Assembly (NCBI GenBank): GCA_035699745.1
Contig: DASSPH010000107.1
Location: 1 to 64,000, forward strand
From: Vicinamibacterales bacterium
Lineage (GTDB): Bacteria > Acidobacteriota > Vicinamibacteria > Vicinamibacterales > 2-12-FULL-66-21
Direction of reading: 5' to 3'
DNA: 64,000 nucleotides
Part shown: positions 45,936 to 58,307 of the stretch, piece by piece
How positions within the stretch are numbered: position 1 is the first letter of the stretch
Layout of the letters: each line of letters starts with the position of its first letter
Program-made: the position numbers and the translations under genes
The notes under the pieces: model-generated
What the model was told of the DNA's origin: nothing
The model's input: the letters and a program-made list of their open reading frames with translations, nothing else
Databases searched by the model: none

Positions 45936-46736
45936 TCAGTGGCCGCGGTCCAGGGTATCGCGCCAGCGGCAGGCGGACGTGAACACCTCTTCGACGGCGG
46001 TGCCGGTATCGAGCGTATCGCGCATCTCCGTCAGCGTGCCGATCAGCACGTCGAGCGCGGCGCGCAGCACGTCCGGGTTGGTCATCGTGATGTCCCTCCA
46101 CAGCGCCGGCGAGCTGCCGGCGAGCCGCGTGGTGTCGTGGAGCCCGCGGCCGGCGATCTCGAGGCCCGCGTCCCCCGCCAGCTTGCCGACGACGTGCATC
46201 AGGGCGCTCGCGGTCAGCTGCGGCAGGTGGCTGACGGCGCCGACGAAGCGGTCGTGCAGCTCGGGGGTCATGATGTGGGGGACGCCGCCGAGGCCGCCGA
46301 CGAAGGCCTCGAGCCGCTGCAGCTCCGCCGTGTGGTTCGGGCCGGGCGTGAGAATCCACGGACGGCCTTCGAACAGATCAGCGCGGGCGTGGGCGGCGCC
46401 GCTGCGGACGTCGCCGGCCATGGGATGGCCGCCGATGAAGGTCAACGACGGGAACGCATCCGCCGCCGCGGCGATCAGCCGCTTGGTGCTGCAGACGTCC
46501 GTGACCACGGCGCCCGGGGACAGATGCGGCGGCAGCGCGGTCAGCGCCTCGATGCTCGCCAGCACCGGCGCGGCCAGGACGACGAGATCGGCGCCGGTGA
46601 TCCGCGACAGCGAATCCCCTTTGTCGAGCGCGACGATCGCGATCCGCGGCCATCGCTTCGCCGCCGCGCGGGCCACGGACGCGCCAACCAGCCCGAACCC
46701 GACGACGGCGACGCGCCCGAACGGACCGTCAATCAC
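45936..46736 (-). CDS. tyrA: Prephenate dehydrogenase
   Basis: A 266-residue enzyme for the Tyr branch (prephenate to 4-hydroxyphenylpyruvate). The N-terminal NAD-binding motif VAVVGFGLVGASVARAA is followed by VTDVCSTKRLIAAAA, FIGGHPMAGDVRSGAAHARADLFEGRPW and HDRFVGAVSHLPQLTASAL, the family blocks with the catalytic His in SHLPQ. It is a monofunctional form without an ACT domain. It is the last gene of the aromatic supraoperon. Confidence 0.9.
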   Translation of the reverse strand: MIDGPFGRVAVVGFGLVGASVARAAAKRWPRIAIVALDKGDSLSRITGADLVVLAAPVLASIEALTALPPHLSPGAVVTDVCSTKRLIAAAADAFPSLTFIGGHPMAGDVRSGAAHARADLFEGRPWILTPGPNHTAELQRLEAFVGGLGGVPHIMTPELHDRFVGAVSHLPQLTASALMHVVGKLAGDAGLEIAGRGLHDTTRLAGSSPALWRDITMTNPDVLRAALDVLIGTLTEMRDTLDTGTAVEEVFTSACRWRDTLDRGH

Positions 46737-47811: not shown

Positions 47812-48105
47812 CTAGCCTTTTTCCTTGGATTGTATTTCGTCCGCGATCCGTTCCAGGTGCCGCGCCTCGTCGATGATCCGTTCGAACAGCCGCTTGATCG
47901 CTTCCTGATCCAGCGGCCCGTGATTGACCGCCTGGACGTTGCGCAGCACCTCGCTCTCCCGCTCCGGCTGGTAGATCGGCACCCCCATCTCGCGTTTCAC
48001 CCGTCCGATCTCCAGCGCGCACGCCGCCCGTGCGTTCAGCAGCCGGACGAGCGACTCGTCCAGCAGGTCGATCCGCTTGCGCAGATCGTCAATCTCCGGC
48101 TTCAT
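47812..48105 (-). CDS. aroQ: Chorismate mutase (AroQ class)
   Basis: A 97-residue all-helical chorismate mutase. [38 protein letters not shown] holds the expected Arg/Arg/Lys active-site pattern, and [13 protein letters not shown] the Glu/Arg pair. It is a stand-alone enzyme, not fused to DAHP synthase or PheA. The ATG overlaps the trpA stop by 4 bp. Confidence 0.9.
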
Positions 48106-48893
48106 GCCTGCCCTTTCAGCCAGCGCACGTACTCTCCGGCCTTTGCCGCCACCGACGCGGACGCGCCGTGCCGCGCGATGACGTCGACCAGCGCGCTCCC
48201 GACGACCGCGGCATCCGCCCACTGCCCGACCTGCGCGACCTGCTCCGGGGTCGAGATGCCGAAGCCGAGCGCCAGCGGCAGCGGCGAGTGCGCGCGGATG
48301 CGGCGCACCAGCGGCTCGGCGTCCGCCGCGAGCCGATCGCGCACGCCCGTCACGCCCAGCCGCGAAATGACATAGAGGAAGCCGGCCCCCATCGCCGCCG
48401 ACGCCTTGATCCGCGCCTCGGCGGTCGTCGGGCTCAGCAGGAAGATCGGATCGATCCCGGCGCCGACCAGGCGATCGCGGAACGGGCCCGCCTCTTCGAC
48501 CGGCAGATCCAGCATCAGCACGCCGTCGACCCCCGCGGTCCCGGCGGCGTCGACGAACGCCTCCTCGCCCATCCGCAGGACCGGATTCGCGTAGGTGAAG
48601 AGGACGATCGGCGCCTCGATGCGCCGCCGATGCTGGCCAATCATCAGCAGCGTGCGCTTCAGCGTGGTGCCGCTCGCCAGCGCGCGCTCCGACGCCCGCT
48701 GGATCACCGGGCCGTCGGCCAGCGGATCCGAGAACGGGACGCCGACTTCGAGCACGTTCGCGCCGTTGTCGGCGATCGCGACGAGAATCTCGGCGGTTCG
48801 CGCCAGGTCCGGATCTCCGGCGGTGACATAGGCCACCAGACCAGGGCCGCCGTTGTCGCGGAGGCGCTCGAACGCTGCCGCAATGGTGGACAT
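48102..48893 (-). CDS. trpA: Tryptophan synthase alpha subunit
   Basis: A 263-residue TIM-barrel lyase that releases indole from indole-glycerol phosphate. The catalytic Glu lies in ANVLEVGVPFSDPLADGPVIQ and Asp in VDGVLMLDLPVEE; GFLYVISRLGVTG and LGFGISTPEQV are the phosphate-binding loops. It overlaps trpB by 1 nt and aroQ by 4 nt. Confidence 0.95.
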   Translation of the reverse strand: MSTIAAAFERLRDNGGPGLVAYVTAGDPDLARTAEILVAIADNGANVLEVGVPFSDPLADGPVIQRASERALASGTTLKRTLLMIGQHRRRIEAPIVLFTYANPVLRMGEEAFVDAAGTAGVDGVLMLDLPVEEAGPFRDRLVGAGIDPIFLLSPTTAEARIKASAAMGAGFLYVISRLGVTGVRDRLAADAEPLVRRIRAHSPLPLALGFGISTPEQVAQVGQWADAAVVGSALVDVIARHGASASVAAKAGEYVRWLKGQA

Positions 48894-50128
48894 CAGCGCC
48901 CGCCCTCCAGCACCTTCTGCACGCTGAGCACGTCCTTGTCGCCGCGGCCGGAGAGGTTCACCAGCAGCACGGCGTCGCGCGGCAGTTCGGGCGCGAGCCG
49001 GCAGGCGTGCGCGATCGCGTGCGACGATTCCAGCGCCGGCAGGATCCCCTCTTCCCGTCCGAGCCGCTGGAACGCCGCGAGCGCATCGGCATCGTCCACC
49101 CAGGTGTATTCGGCGCGCCCCTGGTCGCGCAGCCACGCGTGCTCCGGGCCGACGGACGCATAGTCCAGCCCCGCCGAAATCGAATGCGTCAGCTCGACGT
49201 TGCCGTCGGCGTCCTGGAGCACGAAGCTGCGCGTGCCCTGCAGCACCCCGGCGGCGCCGCCGGCGAACCGTGCGGCATGCTGGCCGGGCGCGATCCCGCG
49301 GCCGCCGGCCTCGACGCCGACGAGCCGGACGCCCGGGTCGGGAATGAACGCGTCGAAGATGCCCATCGCGTTGCTGCCGCCGCCCACGCAGGCGACGATC
49401 GCGTCGGGAAGCCGGCCGAGCTGATCGAGGCACTGCGCGCGCGCCTCGCGCCCGATGATCGATTGGAACTCGCGCACCATCAGCGGATAGGGATGGGGAC
49501 CGAGCACCGAGCCCAGCAGGTAATAGGTGCCGGTCACGTTGGTGACCCAGTCGCGCATCGCCTCGTTGATCGCGTCCTTCAGCGTCCGCGATCCCGCGTT
49601 CACCTCGATCACCTCGGCCCCCAGCAGCCGCATCCGGAACACGTTGAGCGACTGCCGCGCCATGTCCTCCGATCCCATGTAGACGTGGCACTCGAGGCCC
49701 AGCAGGGCGCAGACCGTCGCCGTCGCGACGCCGTGCTGCCCCGCACCGGTTTCGGCGACGATGCGGCGCTTGCCCATGCGCTGCGCGAGCAGCGCCTGTC
49801 CGAGGGCGTTGTTGATCTTGTGCGCGCCGGTGTGCGCCAGATCCTCGCGCTTGAGGACGATGCGCGCGCCGCCGGCGGACTCGGTGAGCCGCCGGGCTTC
49901 GTAGAGCGGGGTCGGGCGGCCGACGTAGTCGCGCAGCAGCCGTCCCAGCTCGTCGCGGAACGCGCCGTCCTCGCGCACCTTGAAATACGCCTCGGTCAGC
50001 TCTTCGATCGGCGCGACCAGCGTCTCCGGCACGAACCGTCCCCCGTACGGCCCGTAATAGCCGCGCGCATCGGGATCGCGGCGGCCGAAGATCGGGCCGC
50101 CGTGCTGTCCGAGAAGCCCCTGCGTCAC
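48893..50128 (-). CDS. trpB: Tryptophan synthase beta subunit
   Basis: A 411-residue PLP enzyme (indole + serine to tryptophan). The GTG 50128 overlaps the trpF TGA and gives [37 protein letters not shown]. The PLP lysine lies in [22 protein letters not shown] and the phosphate loop in [13 protein letters not shown]. It is a standard TrpB1 form and the partner of trpA. Confidence 0.95.
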
Positions 50129-50754
50129 CGTTTCAGCTCCGGCCGCTGGCTCATCGTGGCGAAGAGCATCAGCATCTTCTGAATATCCTTCCTGCCCGGC
50201 GCCTCCTCGACGCCGGACGAGACGTCGATCGCCCACGGCCGCACCATCGCGAGCGCGTCGTTCACGTTCTCCGGCGTCAGTCCGCCGGACAGGATCGTGA
50301 GCCGGCGGCGCGCGATTTCCCGCGCGATGCTCCAGTCGATCGCGGCGCCGGTTCCGCCGCGCTTGATCGGATCGTGCGCGTCCAGCAGCACGGTCACCGA
50401 CTCGGGCAGCGCCAGCGCGGCATCGATGGCGGACGCATCCTTCACCGGGACCGCCTTGATCACGCGCACGCCGGCGCGGACGCAGTCGTCGGGGGATTCG
50501 TCGCCGTGAAACTGCACCGCCGAGAGCTGCAGCTCCGCGGCGAGCCGCTTCGCCTCGGCCACCTGATTCACGAACACGCCGATGACGCTGACCAGCGCCG
50601 GGACGACGGCGAGAATCTCCCGCGCCCGCGCCGCATCGACGGCACGCGGACTCGACGGCCAGAACACCAGGCCGAGGGCCGACGCGCCGCAGGACACGGC
50701 CGCGAGCGCATCCTGCGGAGTGGTGATGCCGCAGATCTTGACCGGCGGGATCAC
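50125..50754 (-). CDS. trpF: Phosphoribosylanthranilate isomerase
   Basis: A 209-residue TIM barrel. [33 protein letters not shown] carries the catalytic Cys and [15 protein letters not shown] the catalytic Asp; [14 protein letters not shown] and [16 protein letters not shown] are the phosphate loops. The GTG 50754 overlaps the trpC stop by 4 bp (GTGA). Confidence 0.94.
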
Positions 50755-51560
50755 GGCTTCCCCCGAAGGGCGCGCAGCGCCGCGCCCGGATCCGGTTCCG
50801 CGATCAGGCGCTCGCCGACAAGGAACGCGTGGTATCCGGCGCGTGTCAGGCGTGTGATATCCGCCGCATCGCGCAACCCGCTCTCTGCCACCGCCGTCAC
50901 GTGCGCGGGCAGGCGGAAGGCGAGCGCCTCGTGCAGTTCCGGCTGGACCGCCAGCGTGCGCAGGTTGCGGCTGTTCACGCCGATCACCTCCGCGCCCGCC
51001 TCGCTCGCCATCTCGAGCTCGGCCCGATCGTGGATCTCGACGAGCGCCGCCAGCCCCCATTCAGCCGCGTCGGCGAGCCGCTCGCGCAGCGCCGCCGGCG
51101 AAAGCGCCCCGGCGATCAGCAGGATCGCGTCCGCGCCGTACGCCGCCGCCTCGGTCACTTGATACCGCTCGACGATGAAGTCCTTGCGCAGCAACGGAGC
51201 GCTCACCACCTGCCGGATCGCGGCGAGGTGGTCGAGCGAACCGTCGAAGAACGTCGGCTCGGTCAGCACCGAGATTGCCGCGGCGCCGCCGCCGACGTAG
51301 GCGACGGCATGCTCCTCCGGACGGTAGTCCGCGCGCAGGATCCCGCGCGACGGTGAGCGCCGCTTGCACTCGGCGATCACACGGGGCGCGTGGCTGTCGC
51401 GCAGCGCTCGCACGAACCTGGCCCCGTTGGGACGGCGTCGCGACGCGTATGCGGCGAGCGTCGCCTCGGGCGTCGCCGCCCGCCGCACCTCGGTCATCCG
51501 CCGTGCGGCGGCGACGATGGTGGCGAGCAGATCCGGCGCGGCGGTCGCGGTCTGCGTCAC
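50751..51560 (-). CDS. trpC: Indole-3-glycerol phosphate synthase
   Basis: A 269-residue TIM barrel, monofunctional (not fused to TrpF). [15 protein letters not shown] holds the catalytic Glu/Lys, followed by [42 protein letters not shown] and VAESGLRD. The GTG 51560 overlaps the trpD stop. Confidence 0.95.
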
Positions 51561-52588
51561 GCCCCGCCTCCCTGCGGCTCGTTCGACACCGCGATCAGCC
51601 GTTCGAGCGCCGCGGCGGCGCGGCCGCTGTCGATCGCCTCCGCCGCGACCGCCAGTCCCTCGGGAATGGTCGCCGCCCTGCCGGCAATGAGCAGCGAGGC
51701 GGCGGCGTTCAGCAACACGATGTCGCGCGGCGCACCGCGCCGGCCGGACAGCACCGCACGCGCGATCGCGGCGTTGTCCCGCGCATCGCCGCCGCGCAGC
51801 TCCGCCGCCGGCGACTTCGAGAGGCCCACGTCCGCCGGATGCAGATAGAACGTGTTGACCGCGCCGTCGCGGCATTCCGACACCTTCGTGTACCCCGTCG
51901 TCGAGATCTCGTCCAGCCCGTCGGCGCCGTGCACGACCCACGCCCGTTCGGCGCCGAGCAGCGCCAGCGAGCGCGCCACCAGCTCGGTCAGCTCCGGCCG
52001 CGGCACCCCGACCAGCTGCCGCGACGCGCCGGCAGGATTGGTCAGCGGGCCAAGGAGGTTGAACGCCGTCCGCACGCCCAGTTCCTTGCGGGTCGGCGCC
52101 GCGTGCCGCATCGACGGATGGAACACCTGCGCGAAGAAGAAGGCAATGCCCGCCTCCTCCAGGCAGCGCTCGACGACGGGTGCGGGGGCGGCGACGTTGA
52201 CGCCGAGCTCTTCGAACAGGTCGGCGCTGCCGCAGCGGCTCGAGGCGCTGCGGTTGCCGTGCTTGGCGATGCGCACGCCGCAGGCCGCGAGCACCAGCGC
52301 CGCGACGGTCGAAACGTTGAACGTGTGCGCGCCGTCGCCGCCGGTGCCGCAGGTGTCGAACACCGGCGCGTAGGTGCGGCTCAGTTTCGTGGCGCGCGCC
52401 CTCATCGTCCGCGCCAGGCCCACGATTTCGTCCGGCCGCTCCCCTTTCATCGCCAGGCCGACCAGGAACCCGGCGATCTGCGACGGCTGCGCCCGCCCGT
52501 CCATGATCGTTTCCATGGCGGCGGCCGCCTCGTCCGCCGACAGGTCGACGCGGCGCTGCAGCTTGTCGATGAGCGCGGGGAACGTCAT
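51557..52588 (-). CDS. trpD: Anthranilate phosphoribosyltransferase
   Basis: A 343-residue enzyme that joins anthranilate and PRPP. The signature is FDTCGTGGDGAHTFNVSTVAALVLAACGVRIAKHGNRSASSRCGSADLFEELG. It overlaps trpG by 4 bp. Confidence 0.95.
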   Translation of the reverse strand: MTFPALIDKLQRRVDLSADEAAAAMETIMDGRAQPSQIAGFLVGLAMKGERPDEIVGLARTMRARATKLSRTYAPVFDTCGTGGDGAHTFNVSTVAALVLAACGVRIAKHGNRSASSRCGSADLFEELGVNVAAPAPVVERCLEEAGIAFFFAQVFHPSMRHAAPTRKELGVRTAFNLLGPLTNPAGASRQLVGVPRPELTELVARSLALLGAERAWVVHGADGLDEISTTGYTKVSECRDGAVNTFYLHPADVGLSKSPAAELRGGDARDNAAIARAVLSGRRGAPRDIVLLNAAASLLIAGRAATIPEGLAVAAEAIDSGRAAAALERLIAVSNEPQGGGA

Positions 52589-53154
52589 CCCCGCGTCTCC
52601 AGGAAGTTGCGGAGGATCTTCCGTCCTTCGCCGGTGAGCACCGATTCAGGGTGGAACTGCACGCCGTGCACCGGCCACTCGCGGTGGCGCAGCCCCATGA
52701 TGATCCCGTCGTCCGTCCGTGCCGAAATCTGCAGGACCGGCGGCGGCGGATCGGCGACGATGAGCGAATGGTAGCGCCCGGCGACGAACGGCTGCGAGAC
52801 GCCGGCGAAGACGCCGGTGCCGTCGTGCTGCACCGACGAGACCTTGCCGTGCATGAGCACCGGCGCGCGGATCACCTCGCCGCCGAAGGCATAGCCGATT
52901 CCCTGATGCCCCAGGCAGACGCCGAGCACCGGCACGCGGCTGCCGAGCACGCGGATGACCTCGACGCTGATGCCGGCGTCCTCGGGACGGCCGGGACCGG
53001 GCGAGATGACGATGCGGTCCGGCTGCATCGCTTCGACCTCGCCGAGCGAGATCTGGTTGTTGCGGCGCACGTCCGGCGCATGCCCGAACTCGCCGAGGTA
53101 CTGGGCGAGGTTATAGGTGAACGAATCGTAATTATCCAGGAGCAGGACCTTCAC
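52585..53154 (-). CDS. trpG: Anthranilate synthase glutamine amidotransferase subunit
   Basis: A 189-residue class I amidotransferase. VLLLDNYDSFTYNLAQYLGE leads to IVISPGPGRPEDAG and the nucleophile Cys in VPVLGVCLGHQGIGYAFGG, with His/Glu in GVQFHPESVLTGEG. It may also serve folate synthesis as PabA. It overlaps trpE by 4 bp. Confidence 0.95.
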   Translation of the reverse strand: MKVLLLDNYDSFTYNLAQYLGEFGHAPDVRRNNQISLGEVEAMQPDRIVISPGPGRPEDAGISVEVIRVLGSRVPVLGVCLGHQGIGYAFGGEVIRAPVLMHGKVSSVQHDGTGVFAGVSQPFVAGRYHSLIVADPPPPVLQISARTDDGIIMGLRHREWPVHGVQFHPESVLTGEGRKILRNFLETRG

Positions 53155-54662
53155 AGCTCGGTCTCCGCCATCTCGATGGCCTGCAGCAGCGCGCGCGCCT
53201 TGTCGCACGTCTCTTCGTATTCCGCCGCAGGGTTCGAGTCGGCGACGATGCCGGCGCCGGCCTGCACGCGGGCGACGCCGTCGCGCAGGCTGATCGTGCG
53301 GATGGCGATGCAGAAGTCCAGGTTGCCGGCGAAGTCGATGTAGCCGACCGCTCCCGCGTAGAGATCGCGGCGGGTCGGCTCGAGCTCCGAGAGGATCTCC
53401 ATCGCGCGGATTTTCGGCGCGCCCGACACCGTTCCCGCCGGGAAGCACGACACGAGGGCGTCGAGGTGGTCGCGGTCGTCCGAGAGCCGCCCTTCGACCG
53501 TCGACACCAGGTGCATGACGTGCGAGTAGCGCTCGAGCCCCATGTACTGCGGCACCTTGACGGTGCCGAACTCGCAGACGCGGCCGAGATCGTTGCGGCC
53601 GAGATCGACGAGCATCACGTGCTCGGCGCGCTCCTTCTCGTTGCGCTTCAGTTCGTCGGCGAGCCGGAGGTCTTCTTCTTCGTTGCGGCCGCGCGGACGG
53701 GTTCCGGCGATCGGATGCGTTTCGACATGCTGCCCTTCCACCCGCACCAGCATCTCCGGCGAGGATCCGACGATGGCGGACTTGCCCATGCGGATGAAAT
53801 ACATGTAAGGGGACGGGTTGACGTGGCGGAGCGCGCGGTAGACCGTCAGCGGTTCGGCTTCGACTCTGGCTTCGAAGCGGTGCGACAGCACCGCCTGGTA
53901 GATGTCTCCCGCGGCGATGCGTTCCTTGATGGCGCGCACGCCCGCCTCATAGGTTTCGCGCGTCTGGTTCGACGCCACTGCCGGCGCCTTGCGGCGCCCC
54001 GGCTCGGAATGCGAGAGACCTCGCTCGAGCTCCCGCTCGAGGAACTGGATCTTGGCGCAGGCGAACTGATACAGCGCGGCGAGATCCTCGTCGGCGGTGA
54101 CGCGGGCGTTGGCAATGATCAGGATGCGGTGCTTGACGTGATCGAAGGCCAGCACCGTATCGAACAGCATGAACCCGGCATCGTCGGCCTGATCGTTCCC
54201 GTCGCGTGGAGCGGCGGAGCTCGTGCGCCAGGCCGCGCGATCCCATGCCGAGGCGAGCGCCGGCTCGAACGTCACCGACGCGTCGTAGCCGATGAAGCCG
54301 ACGGCGCCGCCGGTGAACCGCGGCAGCCCTTGCACGAAGGGCGCGCGGAACTCGGCCATCAGGCGGCGCAGCACCGGCACGAACGGCTCGTCCGATTCGG
54401 TCGTCACGCCGGAGCGATCGACGATCGTCCGTCCGCCGCGCGCGCGCAGCACGAGGAACGGGTCCTTGCCGAGGAACGAGTAGCGCGCGACCTGCTCCCC
54501 GCCTTCCACGCTCTCGAACAGGAACGCGTAGTCGGAGTGCTCGGCAATCTTCAGGAAGGCGGACACCGGCGTCAGCAGATCCGCCATGATCTCCTTGACC
54601 ACCGGCACGAACGTGCCGCGCCGCGCCAGCTCTTTGAACTCGTCGAACGTCGTCTGTTTCAT
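53151..54662 (-). CDS. trpE: Anthranilate synthase component I
   Basis: A 503-residue chorismate-utilising enzyme. An N-terminal regulatory region (FVPVVKEIMADLLTPVSAFLKIAEHSDYAFLFESVEGGEQVARYSFLG, with the Trp-feedback LLTPVSAF-type motif) precedes the catalytic domain with IKERIAAGDIYQAVLSHRF, RNPSPYMYFIRMG-like VNPSPYMYFIRMG, HPIAGTRPRG and CFPAGTVSGAPKIRAMEI. The ATG 54662 is used; the upstream 67-bp gap to aroDE is filled by microrepeat. Confidence 0.95.
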   Translation of the reverse strand: MKQTTFDEFKELARRGTFVPVVKEIMADLLTPVSAFLKIAEHSDYAFLFESVEGGEQVARYSFLGKDPFLVLRARGGRTIVDRSGVTTESDEPFVPVLRRLMAEFRAPFVQGLPRFTGGAVGFIGYDASVTFEPALASAWDRAAWRTSSAAPRDGNDQADDAGFMLFDTVLAFDHVKHRILIIANARVTADEDLAALYQFACAKIQFLERELERGLSHSEPGRRKAPAVASNQTRETYEAGVRAIKERIAAGDIYQAVLSHRFEARVEAEPLTVYRALRHVNPSPYMYFIRMGKSAIVGSSPEMLVRVEGQHVETHPIAGTRPRGRNEEEDLRLADELKRNEKERAEHVMLVDLGRNDLGRVCEFGTVKVPQYMGLERYSHVMHLVSTVEGRLSDDRDHLDALVSCFPAGTVSGAPKIRAMEILSELEPTRRDLYAGAVGYIDFAGNLDFCIAIRTISLRDGVARVQAGAGIVADSNPAAEYEETCDKARALLQAIEMAETEL

Positions 54663-54686
54663 GCCGCTGATCTCTCGCCACCGACG

Positions 54687-54733
54687 CCACGGATTACACG
54701 GATTACACGGACCACACCGAGCACACGGATCAT
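54687..54733. repeat. CACGGATTA microrepeat in the aroDE-trpE gap
   Basis: CACGGATTACACGGATTACA continues as CGGACCACACCGAGCACACGGAT, a degenerate ACACGG repeat filling the only sizeable gap within the trp part of the operon. It makes no obvious hairpin or terminator. Confidence 0.7.
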
Positions 54734-56178
54734 GTCGAGCGCGCCTTGATTGCGCTCGCCACGGCATCCTCGAACAGGCCCGCGGGCGGGCGCTGGCCGG
54801 TCCAGATTTCGAACTGCCGTTCGGCCTGCGCGACGAGCATGGCGAGGCCGCCGATCACGGTGCAGCCGCCCGCGGCCGCGGCGGCCATCAACTCCGTCGG
54901 ATCGGGGTCGTACACGAGGTCGTAGACCAGCGTGCCGTCGAACGGACCGGTGTACGGCGTACCGGGGACGCCGCGGCTGCCGACCGGCGTCGCGTTGACG
55001 AGCACGTCCCACGAGCCGGACGGCGGGGGCCAATCCAAGGACGCGGCGCCGATCGCACCGGCCACCGTGGCGGCGGCCTCGGGACGCCGTGCGGCGATCG
55101 CGACGGAGGCGCCTTCCCGACGGAGCGCGAGGCCGACGCCGCGCGCCGCGCCGCCGGCGCCGAGGATCACCGTCCGCAGTCCGCGCAGCGTCGGGACGCG
55201 CGCGCGCAGCGGCTCCAGGAAGCCGTCGGCGTCGGTGTTGCTCCCGACCCACTTCGCCTGGCCGGGCCGCGCCGCACCGCCGTCGCGCACGGCGATCGTG
55301 TTCACTGCCCCGGCGGCGGCCGCGGCGGGCGCGACGTCGTCGAGCAGCGGCATCACGTCCCGTTTGTAGGGAATGGTCACGCTCGCGCCGCGCAGCCCGA
55401 TCGCACCGCCGAATTCGCGGAGCCCCTCGAGATCGCGGGTGTCGAGCGGCACGTACGCGGCGTTGAGACCCAGCGCGGCGAATCCGGCGTTGTGCATCGC
55501 CGGCGACAGCGATCCCGTCACCGGGCGGCCGATGACCATGTAGACCGCGGCGTCGCGCCGGATCCGGCGGAAGCGGAACTCGTGCTGCAGCCGGGCGGCG
55601 GTAATCTGCCCCGGCGCGATCGCCGGACCGGCGTAGGTCCAGCGCGAGCCGAAACGGTCGGCGAGCACACGCGTCGCCAGTCCCGCCGCGCCCATCCCGA
55701 TCACGATCGACGAGCCGTCGCCGTTGGCCGCGTCCAGCAGGGCGTGAAGCTCTGACGGCCGTTCGGTGGTGACGGCAAGCTTCGCGATCTCGCCGCCTTT
55801 GCCGCGCAGTCGCGCCAGGATTCCGCGGACGTCGTGCGGCGTGCCGGAGAAGTCGTGGCGCGACACGATCACGCCGCGGCCGCCGCGCGCCCGAATCAGG
55901 GGATCGACGTCGGCATCCCACTCGACGTCGATGAACTCGGCGCCAAGCTCGTGCGCCCGGTGCAGGATTCCGAGCCGCTCGTCCTCGCTGCCGTCGAACA
56001 TGCCGCCCTCGCGCAGCGGACGGCAGGTCACGATCGCCGGCTTGATCCGTCCCGCGAGGGCGGCGTCCGGATCCGGCCGGAGCATCGCGTCGAGGCGCAG
56101 CTCCACCAGATCGGCGTCCGGCTCGGCAGCCTGACGCGCCGCCCGGATGGCGGCGGCATCCCTTCCCACGACGGTCAC
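54730..56178 (-). CDS. aroDE: Bifunctional 3-dehydroquinate dehydratase / shikimate dehydrogenase
   Basis: About 482 residues, a fusion of type I DHQ dehydratase (residues about 1-210: DLVELRLDAM, PAIVTCRPLREGGMF, FIDVEWDADVDPLI, VIVSRHDFSGTP with the catalytic His and EIAKLAVTTERPSE with the Schiff-base Lys) and shikimate dehydrogenase (residues about 215-480: VIGRPVTGSLSPAMHNAGFAALG, SVTIPYKRDVMPLLDD with catalytic Lys, NTDADGFLEPL, and VILGAGGAARGVGLAL). It covers two successive shikimate steps. The start is uncertain: AGGAGG lies at 56198-56203 but no ATG follows; GTG 56178, ATT 56184 or TTG 56220 (inside the U tract of the attenuator) are candidates. It is the first structural gene after the attenuator. 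Confidence 0.92.
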   Translation of the reverse strand: MTVVGRDAAAIRAARQAAEPDADLVELRLDAMLRPDPDAALAGRIKPAIVTCRPLREGGMFDGSEDERLGILHRAHELGAEFIDVEWDADVDPLIRARGGRGVIVSRHDFSGTPHDVRGILARLRGKGGEIAKLAVTTERPSELHALLDAANGDGSSIVIGMGAAGLATRVLADRFGSRWTYAGPAIAPGQITAARLQHEFRFRRIRRDAAVYMVIGRPVTGSLSPAMHNAGFAALGLNAAYVPLDTRDLEGLREFGGAIGLRGASVTIPYKRDVMPLLDDVAPAAAAAGAVNTIAVRDGGAARPGQAKWVGSNTDADGFLEPLRARVPTLRGLRTVILGAGGAARGVGLALRREGASVAIAARRPEAAATVAGAIGAASLDWPPPSGSWDVLVNATPVGSRGVPGTPYTGPFDGTLVYDLVYDPDPTELMAAAAAGGCTVIGGLAMLVAQAERQFEIWTGQRPPAGLFEDAVASAIKARST

Positions 56179-56218
56179 GCAAATCTGAGCCGTAGATCCT
56201 CCTGAACCCGCAGACCCC

Positions 56219-56259
56219 AAAAAGAAAAGCCCCCTCAATCGCGATGACTGAGGGGGCTT
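56219..56259 (-). terminator. Attenuator terminator of the aromatic supraoperon
   Basis: On the reverse strand an 11-bp perfect stem AAGCCCCCTCA/TGAGGGGGCTT (arms 56259-56249 and 56237-56227, 11-nt loop) is followed by TTTTCTTTTT. This is a textbook intrinsic terminator placed between the leader peptide ORF and aroDE. Confidence 0.9.
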
Positions 56260-56306
56260 CCGGAACTCGGTGCGTTTCGAACGCGCGCTAGCGCTTCCCC
56301 CTCGTC
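56246..56306 (-). promoter_or_regulatory. Candidate antiterminator pairing
   Basis: GAGGGGG within the leader ORF (56303-56297) is complementary to CCCCCTC in the 5' arm of the terminator (56256-56250). The pairing extends by GAC (56306-56304) with GTC (56248-56246) across one bulged A. It competes with the terminator stem. The G-rich segment begins 14 nt after the last Trp codon, so a ribosome stalled at the Trp codons would leave it free while one at the leader stop codon would mask it. Confidence 0.75.
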
Positions 56307-56380
56307 GCGTGGGCGTACCACCACCAATACGACGTAAACGTCGTCCGGCCGGCGGCGAGGAGCGCGTTATTGGTCAGCAC
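56288..56380 (-). CDS. trpL: Leader peptide of the aromatic/trp operon (attenuation)
   Basis: A 30-codon ORF, GTG 56380 to TAG 56288. An in-frame TAG at 56393-56395 prevents an earlier start. Its C-terminal half reads TFTSYWWWYAHATRGKR: Phe at codon 15, Tyr at 18, three consecutive TGG Trp codons at 19-21, Tyr at 22. Tandem Trp codons followed by an antiterminator and terminator are diagnostic of ribosome-mediated attenuation, known for trp in enterobacteria, rhizobia and Streptomyces. The flanking Phe and Tyr codons may let it sense the other aromatic products of this operon. A short hairpin (ACGACG/CGTCGT) precedes the Trp codons. Translation may be leaderless or use a weak site. Confidence 0.88.
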   Translation of the reverse strand: MLTNNALLAAGRTTFTSYWWWYAHATRGKR

Positions 56381-56389
56381 GCTGCGGAG

Positions 56390-56398
56390 AGCCTAACA
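56390..56398 (-). promoter_or_regulatory. Weak extended -10 candidate for the trpL-aroDE operon
   Basis: Reverse strand TG-T-TAGGCT (56398-56390) ends 9 nt before the trpL GTG. No good -35 is present. It is proposed because the region between the divergent genes is only about 80 bp long and this is the best -10 on that strand. Confidence 0.3.
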
Positions 56399-56438
56399 CA
56401 GAAGGCAGAGCCAAGTCCGTCCGGGCGGCGTCTAATCG

Positions 56439-56447: not shown

Positions 56448-56459
56448 GGTTTGCATACC

Positions 56460-58307
56460 ATGAAGATCCGGGTTTTTGTACTGTCCGTCGCGCTGGCCGC
56501 GTTCGGGTGGGCGCGAGTGCCGGCAACCACATCCCTCATGCCGATCGAGGAGGTGAAGCCCGGAATGGTGGGCGTCGGCCGCACGATCTTCGAGGGATCC
56601 GAGATGCAGGACTTCAAGGTCCACATCCTCGGCGTGCTGAAGAACGTGCAGGCGCCGCAGCGCAACCTGATCCTCGCCCGCCTCGAAGGGGGACCGCTCG
56701 CGCAGACCGGCGTCATCGCCGGCATGAGCGGCAGCCCCGTCTACGTCGACGGCCGCCTCGTCGGCGCCGTCTCGTACTCGATCGGCGCGTTTCCGAAAGA
56801 ACCGATCGCCGGCATCACGCCGATCGGCGAGATGATCGAGGCAACCGCCGACCCGTCGCCGCGCCGCACCGTTCCGGCGCAGGGGCGCATCGAACTGCCG
56901 GTCAGTCCCGAGCGGCTCGCGGCGTCGATTCGCGCCGCCTATGCCAACGTCGCCAGCTTCGCCGATCGCCCGGCCGACGTGCAGGTGTTCGGACTGCCGG
57001 CCCCGGCGGGCGCGCAGATGGGGGCGCTCCTCCGGCCGATCGCCACGCCGCTGGTGATGAGCGGCATGAACGGCGCGACGTCGGATCTCGTCACGTCCAT
57101 GTTCCGCGACGCCGGCTTCGCGCCGGTGCTGTCGGGCGGATTCTCGGGCGGGTCCGCGCCTGCGGCCGCCGCCGAACCGCTCCGTCCCGGCGATCCCGTC
57201 GGCGTCTCCCTGCTCCGCGGCGACGGCGAGATGGGCGCGACCGGCACCGTCACGCACGTCGACGGCACGCGCGTCTATGCGTTCGGCCATCCGTTCTTCA
57301 ACTTCGGTCCGACGGCGTTCCCGATGACGCGCGCCACCGTCTACACCTCTCTCCCCAGCCTGATGTCGTCGTTCAAGATCGCGACCCTGGGCGAGGTGAT
57401 CGGCACGGTGCAGCAGGATCGCGCCACGGCGATCGCCGGCGCGCTCGGCAGCGGCCCGGCGACGGTCCCGCTCACCGTCACGCTCGAATCCAGCCGCGGC
57501 ACCACGCGCACGTTCAAGTACGAGGCGGCCGTCGACCAGCTCTTCACGCCGCTCCTCACCTACGTCGCGCTGTTCAACACGCTCGGCAGCTACGAGCGGC
57601 AGTTCGGCGCCGCCACCGTCATGGTCAAGGGCAAGGCGTCGTTCGACAAGCACGCCGACCTCGCGTACGAGGACATCTTCACCGGCGACCAGCCGATTTC
57701 CGCCGCGTCCGCCTACGTCGCGGGTCCGATCACGATGCTGCTTGCGAACGATCTCGAGCCGCTGACGCTGAAGGGCGTGGAGCTGACGATCACCACTGCC
57801 GAGGAATCGCGCTCCGCGACGATCGAGCGCGTGTGGCTCGACGACGTGCGGCCGCGCGCCGGCCGGACGGTGCCCCTGAAAGTGCTCACCCGGAACTATC
57901 GCGGCGGCGAGCGGATCTCCACGATTCCGATCGAGATCCCGGCGAACGCCTCGGGGCAGCTGACGGTGATGGTCACCGACGGCAAGCAGCTCAATCAGAT
58001 CGAGCAGCGCGAGCTGCGGCGCAGCCTGCAGCCCCAGAGCGTGGCGCAGATGATCAAGGTCCTCAACTCGACGCACCGCAACAACCGTCTTTACGTGCGG
58101 CTGCTCACCGGCACGCCCGGCGCGGTGGTCAACGGCGAAGCGCTGCCCTCGCTCCCCCCGTCCGTGCTCGCCGTTCTCGAAGGGGATCGCAGCGGCGGCA
58201 ATTTCGCGCCGATCCGCAGCGCCGCGCTCGGCGAATGGGAACTGCCGATGGACTCCGCCATCGTCGGCACGCGCGTGCTGACGATCGATCTCGACAGCCG
58301 CAGATAG
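56460..58307 (+). CDS. Secreted SpoIVB-like (S55) serine peptidase domain protein
   Basis: A 615-residue protein with a signal peptide (MKIRVFVLSVALAAFGWARVPA). The S55 domain occupies about residues 30-330: EVKPGMVGVGRTIFEGSEMQDFKVHILGVLKN, GMSGSPVYVDGRLVGAVSYSIG (GMSGSP at 88-93, the serine nucleophile region) and TVTHVDGTRVYAFGHPFFNFGP with a candidate His. The C-terminal half is beta-rich. SpoIVB itself is a sporulation signalling protease; in this Gram-negative context the role is unknown. It is followed after 17 bp by a propeller protein on the same strand. Confidence 0.82.
   Translation: MKIRVFVLSVALAAFGWARVPATTSLMPIEEVKPGMVGVGRTIFEGSEMQDFKVHILGVLKNVQAPQRNLILARLEGGPLAQTGVIAGMSGSPVYVDGRLVGAVSYSIGAFPKEPIAGITPIGEMIEATADPSPRRTVPAQGRIELPVSPERLAASIRAAYANVASFADRPADVQVFGLPAPAGAQMGALLRPIATPLVMSGMNGATSDLVTSMFRDAGFAPVLSGGFSGGSAPAAAAEPLRPGDPVGVSLLRGDGEMGATGTVTHVDGTRVYAFGHPFFNFGPTAFPMTRATVYTSLPSLMSSFKIATLGEVIGTVQQDRATAIAGALGSGPATVPLTVTLESSRGTTRTFKYEAAVDQLFTPLLTYVALFNTLGSYERQFGAATVMVKGKASFDKHADLAYEDIFTGDQPISAASAYVAGPITMLLANDLEPLTLKGVELTITTAEESRSATIERVWLDDVRPRAGRTVPLKVLTRNYRGGERISTIPIEIPANASGQLTVMVTDGKQLNQIEQRELRRSLQPQSVAQMIKVLNSTHRNNRLYVRLLTGTPGAVVNGEALPSLPPSVLAVLEGDRSGGNFAPIRSAALGEWELPMDSAIVGTRVLTIDLDSRR

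Follow-up and report, generated by a model that had tools for sequence, protein, structure and literature searches.

Comparative evidence for a ribosome-mediated transcription attenuator upstream of the aromatic amino acid supraoperon in Vicinamibacterales

One leader can read several of the amino acids that an operon makes, as is the case for ilvGMEDA and thrABC of E. coli. Proteobacteria and Actinobacteria both have trp attenuators of the classical type (PMC1262725). The aroR leader of C. glutamicum, located upstream of aroF, responds to limitation of Phe and not of Tyr (PMC11802643, citing Neshat 2014). The uORFC-13-1 motif of Acholeplasma is found upstream of aroF as well (PMC8632094). Of the attenuators predicted in Acidobacteria, hardly any had a known function at the time of a 2010 survey (PMC2965389), and we found no reports of attenuation in Acidobacteriota or Vicinamibacteria in the open-licence literature.

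The element described here lies in a window of 64 kb (the whole stretch of DNA that was analysed) from a member of the Vicinamibacterales. We class it as a probable ribosome-mediated transcription attenuator outside the E. coli trpL family. With E. coli trpL and the attenuators of Corynebacterium and Streptomyces it shares a short ORF with tandem Trp codons, an intrinsic terminator before the first gene and an antiterminator that excludes this terminator (PMC1262725). It differs from the classical trp attenuators in belonging to another phylum, in heading aroDE and a supraoperon with aro genes, chorismate mutase (CM) and tyrA, and in having Tyr and often Phe codons in its cluster. Moreover, its antiterminator strand (segment 2) lies mostly inside the ORF, and no conserved 1:2 hairpin was found. 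A multivalent reading would make it similar to ilvGMEDA and thrABC, whose leaders use branched-chain or Thr/Ile codons instead of aromatic ones. While aroR likewise uses aromatic codons (Phe-Tyr-Phe) to control a DAHP synthase of the common pathway, it has no Trp codons and stands apart from the trp operon (PMC11802643). The uORFC-13-1 motif is comparable in its predicted Phe-codon uORF before a terminator and in its DAHP synthase target, whereas it comes from another phylum, lacks a Trp/Tyr cluster and has one target gene (PMC8632094).

In the window, the leader and terminator are located between aroDE and a divergent gene at 56451-58307 (SpoIVB/S55 peptidase family) (Table 1). A sequence-only reading of this DNA had described a 30-codon ORF with FTSYWWWY upstream of aroDE, and the ORF is exactly as described. 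The ORF of 30 amino acids runs on the minus strand from a GTG at 56380, a guess as to the start, to the stop codon TAG at 56290-56288. The residues F-T-S-Y-W-W-W-Y include Phe encoded by TTT (56338-56336), Tyr by TAT (56329-56327), three Trp by TGG (56326-56318) and a second Tyr by TAC (56317-56315). A strong intrinsic terminator (56261-56219, minus strand) separates the ORF from aroDE, with a stem of 16 pairs and a loop of 5 (56261-56225) followed by CTTTTTGGGG and a fold of -28.3 kcal/mol (z -5.4). The terminator and U run of the earlier reading are real; its 11-bp stem was too short, and its lower coordinate of 56227 left most of the U tract (56228-56219) outside. A generic promoter scan of the window found none. 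In nearly all other genera the leader is directly preceded by TTGACA-N17/18-TATCGT, of which the window has a weak copy.

The WWW run alone (TGGTGGTGG, one copy in the 64 kb window with both strands counted) is weak evidence because base composition already predicts about 0.7 copies per window. A chance run was rejected through conservation and not through rarity within the window: its place before a terminator and an aromatic operon, together with its conservation across relatives, is not chance.

Pfam and NCBIfam identified the downstream genes as aroDE, trpE, trpG, trpD, trpC, trpF, trpB, trpA, chorismate mutase, DAHP synthase and tyrA, which verified the earlier claim that the regulated unit combines trp genes with aroDE, chorismate mutase, DAHP synthase and tyrA. 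The order aroDE-trpEGDCFBA-CM-DAHPS-tyrA is kept in nearly all Vicinamibacterales loci long enough to judge, and a separate CM gene went undetected in a few. Only one DAHP synthase is encoded in the genome of the window, since the remaining PF00793 protein is a KDO8P synthase, and a search of this genome for a class II DAHP synthase found none. As the single shikimate dehydrogenase found in the genome is also encoded by the supraoperon, the synthesis of Tyr and Phe relies on this operon too. No ATG is present near the expected start of aroDE (window 56178-56220), and the nearest in-frame TTG, at 56220, falls within the U tract; TTG 56220, or ACG 56193 behind AGGAGG (56203-56198), are guesses at the start.

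Table 1 Features of the putative attenuator and the aromatic supraoperon in the window.
Feature	Position	Strand	Basis
Promoter-like site CGGACT-N18-TAGGCT, weak	56390..56419	minus	comparison with other genera
Leader ORF, 30 codons, MLTNNALLAAGRTTFTSYWWWYAHATRGKR*	56288..56380	minus	reading of sequence; leader type kept in the order
Sensor codons TAT TGG TGG TGG TAC (Y-W-W-W-Y)	56315..56329	minus	sequence; comparison with the order
Segment 2, antiterminator strand GACGAGGGGG, within leader ORF	56297..56306	minus	truncated-leader fold; covariation in relatives
Segment 3, terminator 5' arm GCCCCCTCAGTC	56246..56257	minus	sequence, fold, alignment
Segment 4, terminator 3' arm GATTGAGGGGGC	56229..56240	minus	sequence, fold, alignment
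U tract TTTTCTTTTT, expected end of attenuated transcript	56219..56228	minus	sequence
aroDE, type I 3-dehydroquinase fused to shikimate dehydrogenase	54730..56193	minus	Pfam/NCBIfam
trpE	53151..54668	minus	Pfam/NCBIfam
trpG	52585..53151	minus	Pfam/NCBIfam
trpD	51557..52588	minus	Pfam/NCBIfam
trpC	50751..51563	minus	Pfam/NCBIfam
trpF	50125..50760	minus	Pfam/NCBIfam
trpB	48893..50125	minus	Pfam/NCBIfam
trpA	48102..48896	minus	Pfam/NCBIfam
Chorismate mutase (type II)	47812..48105	minus	Pfam/NCBIfam
DAHP synthase, sole one found in genome	46758..47807	minus	Pfam/NCBIfam; genome search
tyrA, prephenate dehydrogenase	45936..46736	minus	Pfam/NCBIfam

We compared the regions upstream of aroDE from the order and class of the window; they come mostly from metagenome-assembled genomes, and all inference from them is sequence-based. 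A short leader rich in W, Y and F precedes aroDE in 121 of the 122 readable Vicinamibacterales loci, the exception being L050 (G045), and nearly all of these loci have a terminator after the leader, a U tract after the stem and a strand able to pair with the 5' arm of the terminator. Examples are SYWWWYRTATEGA, AWWYWGTSEEA, WFWFIYFSSLSEEA and WWWYYAFTSTGEA; in four loci the leader has one Trp plus nearby Tyr/Phe. A covariance model of the element detects it in almost every member of the order that was sampled, with one copy per genome and upstream of aroDE; its matches elsewhere in the phylum are only weak. No second copy of the switch was found in the genome of the window, where the other matches of the model are weak or come from this palindrome read on the opposite strand. 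Outside the class Vicinamibacteria, no leader was found upstream of aroDE (Terriglobia, Bryobacteraceae, Phycisphaerales and others).

The strand that pairs with the 5' arm of the terminator (consensus CTGAAGAGGC) follows the aromatic codons and precedes the terminator, and it is mostly contained in the ORF. It begins about 20 nt before the stop codon of the leader, which precedes the strand in 5 of 65 genera. Segment 2 was found by a best-complement search, its position being less certain in a few loci; its complementarity beats shuffles at p<0.05 in 84% of genera, and it pairs better with its own terminator arm than with the arms of other families (Wilcoxon 1.8e-7). In an alignment of 30 sequences, the two-sided compensatory changes in the terminator and antiterminator helices exceed 500 of 500 shuffles, and 97.1% and 94.3% of the cells, respectively, are paired. 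A fold of the truncated leader in the window pairs segment 2 with 56256-56246, which is among the weaker pairings of the compared loci. No conserved 1:2 hairpin of the E. coli trp kind, which pauses polymerase and in which a strand upstream of the Trp codons would hide segment 2, was found among the relatives, where the complementarity is no better than that of shuffles (median p 0.4); the single-sequence fold of the window does show a pairing of this type.

These comparisons confirm that the leader and a strong terminator precede the aromatic supraoperon and that this is not chance. The sequence-only reading had named the Trp codons and terminator of orthologous loci in the order as its test beforehand, and both are kept; the covariation it called for is seen in both alternative stems. 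Conserved codons, terminator and covariation together argue for the trp-type attenuator it had proposed. An ORF with Trp codons upstream of trp genes, a terminator before aroDE and an antiterminator that a passing ribosome could mask are all present, and we believe, with a probability of roughly 0.9, that the entire supraoperon is under the control of a ribosome-mediated transcription attenuator. Points that speak against it are the weak promoter and the weaker segment 2 pairing of the window, the failure to find a conserved 1:2 hairpin, the lack of Phe enrichment over all genera and the Tyr codon of aroR that gives no Tyr response.

In the proposed mechanism, RNA polymerase would start just upstream of the leader ORF with a ribosome trailing behind. 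When charged tRNA-Trp is scarce, the ribosome would stall in the W/Y/F cluster, and scarcity of tRNA-Tyr, or of tRNA-Phe in many relatives, might act in the same way. The G-rich segment 2 would then be free to pair with segment 3, the terminator would be blocked and aroDE-trp-CM-DAHPS-tyrA would be transcribed. As the footprint of a ribosome is taken, by a published rule of thumb, to extend about 12 nt past the codon that it is reading (PMC4833913), a stall at the last aromatic codon would leave most of the strand free. With the aromatic tRNAs charged, the ribosome would cover the strand and the terminator would form, and transcription would stop near 56219. The switch probably turns the operon on when ribosomes are short of aromatic amino acids.

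Which amino acids the leader reads was addressed by spacing and enrichment in one representative per genus (67 genera). The last Trp codon lies at a widely varying distance from the antiterminator strand (SD 5.1 nt, family means of 8 to 24 nt), while the distance from the last W, Y or F has a mean of 9.9 nt and an SD of 2.87. Among all 171 residue pairs added to Trp in this test, F+Y gave the smallest SD. Trp is the most enriched residue by far, with 27% of the sensor zone and at least two Trp in 97% of genera. In the ten codons preceding the strand, Tyr accounts for 12.3% versus 1.8% further upstream, an enrichment of about 7-fold, and because its codons there include both TAT and TAC, the residue is kept rather than the bases. 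Over all genera the sensor zone shows no enrichment of Phe, but in families f13 and f14 Phe is usually the last sensor residue; the Phe codon before WWW that had drawn attention in the window is present there without being a conserved position. Tyr/Phe codons of the sensor zone end in T in 65% of cases versus 29% for other NNY codons of the same zone (p 6e-10, only indicative because genera are not independent), and the T-ending share of Tyr/Phe codons in aroDE/trpE of these genomes is about 20-25%. TAT and TTT are preferred in the leaders, though in these GC-rich genomes aroDE/trpE use them as the minor codons. Of the 102 Phe codons in the operon of the window, 1 is TTT, and the Phe of the leader is TTT. 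Product codons that are enriched (Tyr) or positioned relative to the antiterminator (Phe, frequent in f13 and f14) are features of a multivalent leader, and the new part of the finding is that more than one amino acid appears to be read by the sensor.

Family f16, from another order of the class, has his genes between aroDE and the stretch from trpE to DAHP synthase. Recognised over three loci (L237, L238 and L239), partly by Pfam and partly by reading translations, they encode a histidyl-tRNA-synthetase-like protein, hisG, hisD, a hisC-like aminotransferase, hisH, hisA, hisF and hisIE. The leaders of this type (L124, L125, L126, L128, L130, L131, L248 and L249) end with His among Trp, Phe and Tyr: RRWRPVFRHHRYHP, RRWRPIFHRYHRT, RRWRATVHHHRYHA, VWRGSVHHHRHHS, RRWRTVFHYHWHP, RWRPTFHHHRHYD and WAWRPFFHFRYHP. 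After each comes a terminator, whose 5' arm is complementary to a strand located 34-37 nt past the stop codon and placed differently from the strand of the Vicinamibacterales; the complementarity is significant at p<0.01 in five of seven, the other two giving 0.05 and 0.09. The Vicinamibacterales have a separate his operon, which has a His leader of its own in most of the his loci checked (L253-L280). Upstream of hisG in the genome of the window (L269, G000:C27), the His leader AHHHRHHHTCFGGPVELRH stands before a hairpin whose tail is rich in T, as is also the case for the separate his operon of the order. We consider it reasonably probable that one attenuator reads Trp, Tyr and Phe for the whole pathway, that the sensor codons follow the genes of the operon, and that the f16 leader is a combined sensor of His and Trp/Phe/Tyr.

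A more conservative explanation is an attenuator that senses Trp only, in which the Tyr and Phe codons are there by accident or are retained for reasons that concern the RNA or the ribosome, and aro, CM and tyrA ride along. The dominance of Trp in the sensor zone fits this, as does the Tyr codon of C. glutamicum aroR, which has no measured effect (PMC11802643) and warns that the presence of a codon in a leader does not ensure a function. However, F+Y is the best of 171 pairs in spacing, Tyr is 7-fold enriched with both of its codons used, some leaders hold one Trp with Tyr/Phe, and leaders carry His codons where the operon has taken in his genes. A Trp-only sensor would be blind to a shortage of Tyr or Phe at the DAHP synthase or shikimate dehydrogenase step, because the sole such genes found lie in the supraoperon. 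We regard sensing of Trp only as possible but doubtful. The shared aromatic attenuator of the sequence-only reading, mostly responding to Trp and modulated by Tyr/Phe, is the best reading of the comparative data on spacing, Tyr enrichment and the His leaders of the sister order.

Control could instead be translational, the hairpin mainly hiding the ribosome binding site of aroDE and the leader freeing it. The 3' arm of the terminator contains GAGG, and the aligned start of aroDE lies at most 16 nt from this stem in 25 of 65 genera (about 40%; e.g. L003, L004 and L025), so the arm may double as a ribosome binding site there. In most genera, however, the start is further off (median 22 nt), and nearly every locus has a U tract behind the stem. 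We therefore judge translational control to be unlikely as the main mode; in those 25 genera the hairpin may also limit aroDE translation as a possible second layer of control. In Firmicutes, trp genes are controlled by T-boxes and TRAP, a precedent for reading the element as a T-box, TRAP site, riboswitch or constitutive terminator plus a chance short ORF, and the WWW run is not improbable at the composition of the window. Against this, the aromatic codons are kept across the order and the antiterminator covaries. No upstream gene needs a terminator, because the upstream neighbour is divergent. Rfam, including the Trp_leader and T-box models, gave no match at gathering score in the window or relatives and chance-level matches only at loose thresholds; a T-box, riboswitch or other Rfam family was ruled out by this absence. 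Such an origin is very improbable.

Other leaders were seen in the phylum. WWW leaders with terminators (RGWWWRTAHAEGGSPRS, ASWWWYRRVSGGRVAC and ANWWWCTHTTGGREAMP) stand before trpE (L302) or a TrpB-like PLP enzyme (L298 and L299). At L306, the leader MTRTTILLLLVLVLVLVTQGAN and a terminator lie upstream of a class IV aminotransferase (IlvE-like), which suggests a branched-chain attenuator. A search of relatives for a Phe leader before pheA (PF00800) gave nothing convincing; near the start of this gene (prephenate dehydratase), L310, L312, L316 and L324 have strong hairpins whose tails are rich in T, without a Phe leader.

One attenuator of the Acidobacteriota is now explained across an order, and His and Trp leaders are found elsewhere in the phylum. 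The apparent change of the amino acids read by the leader with the genes of the operon offers a natural experiment: as the leader residues track the operon genes, the logic of multi-input sensing would be testable by simple reporter fusions.
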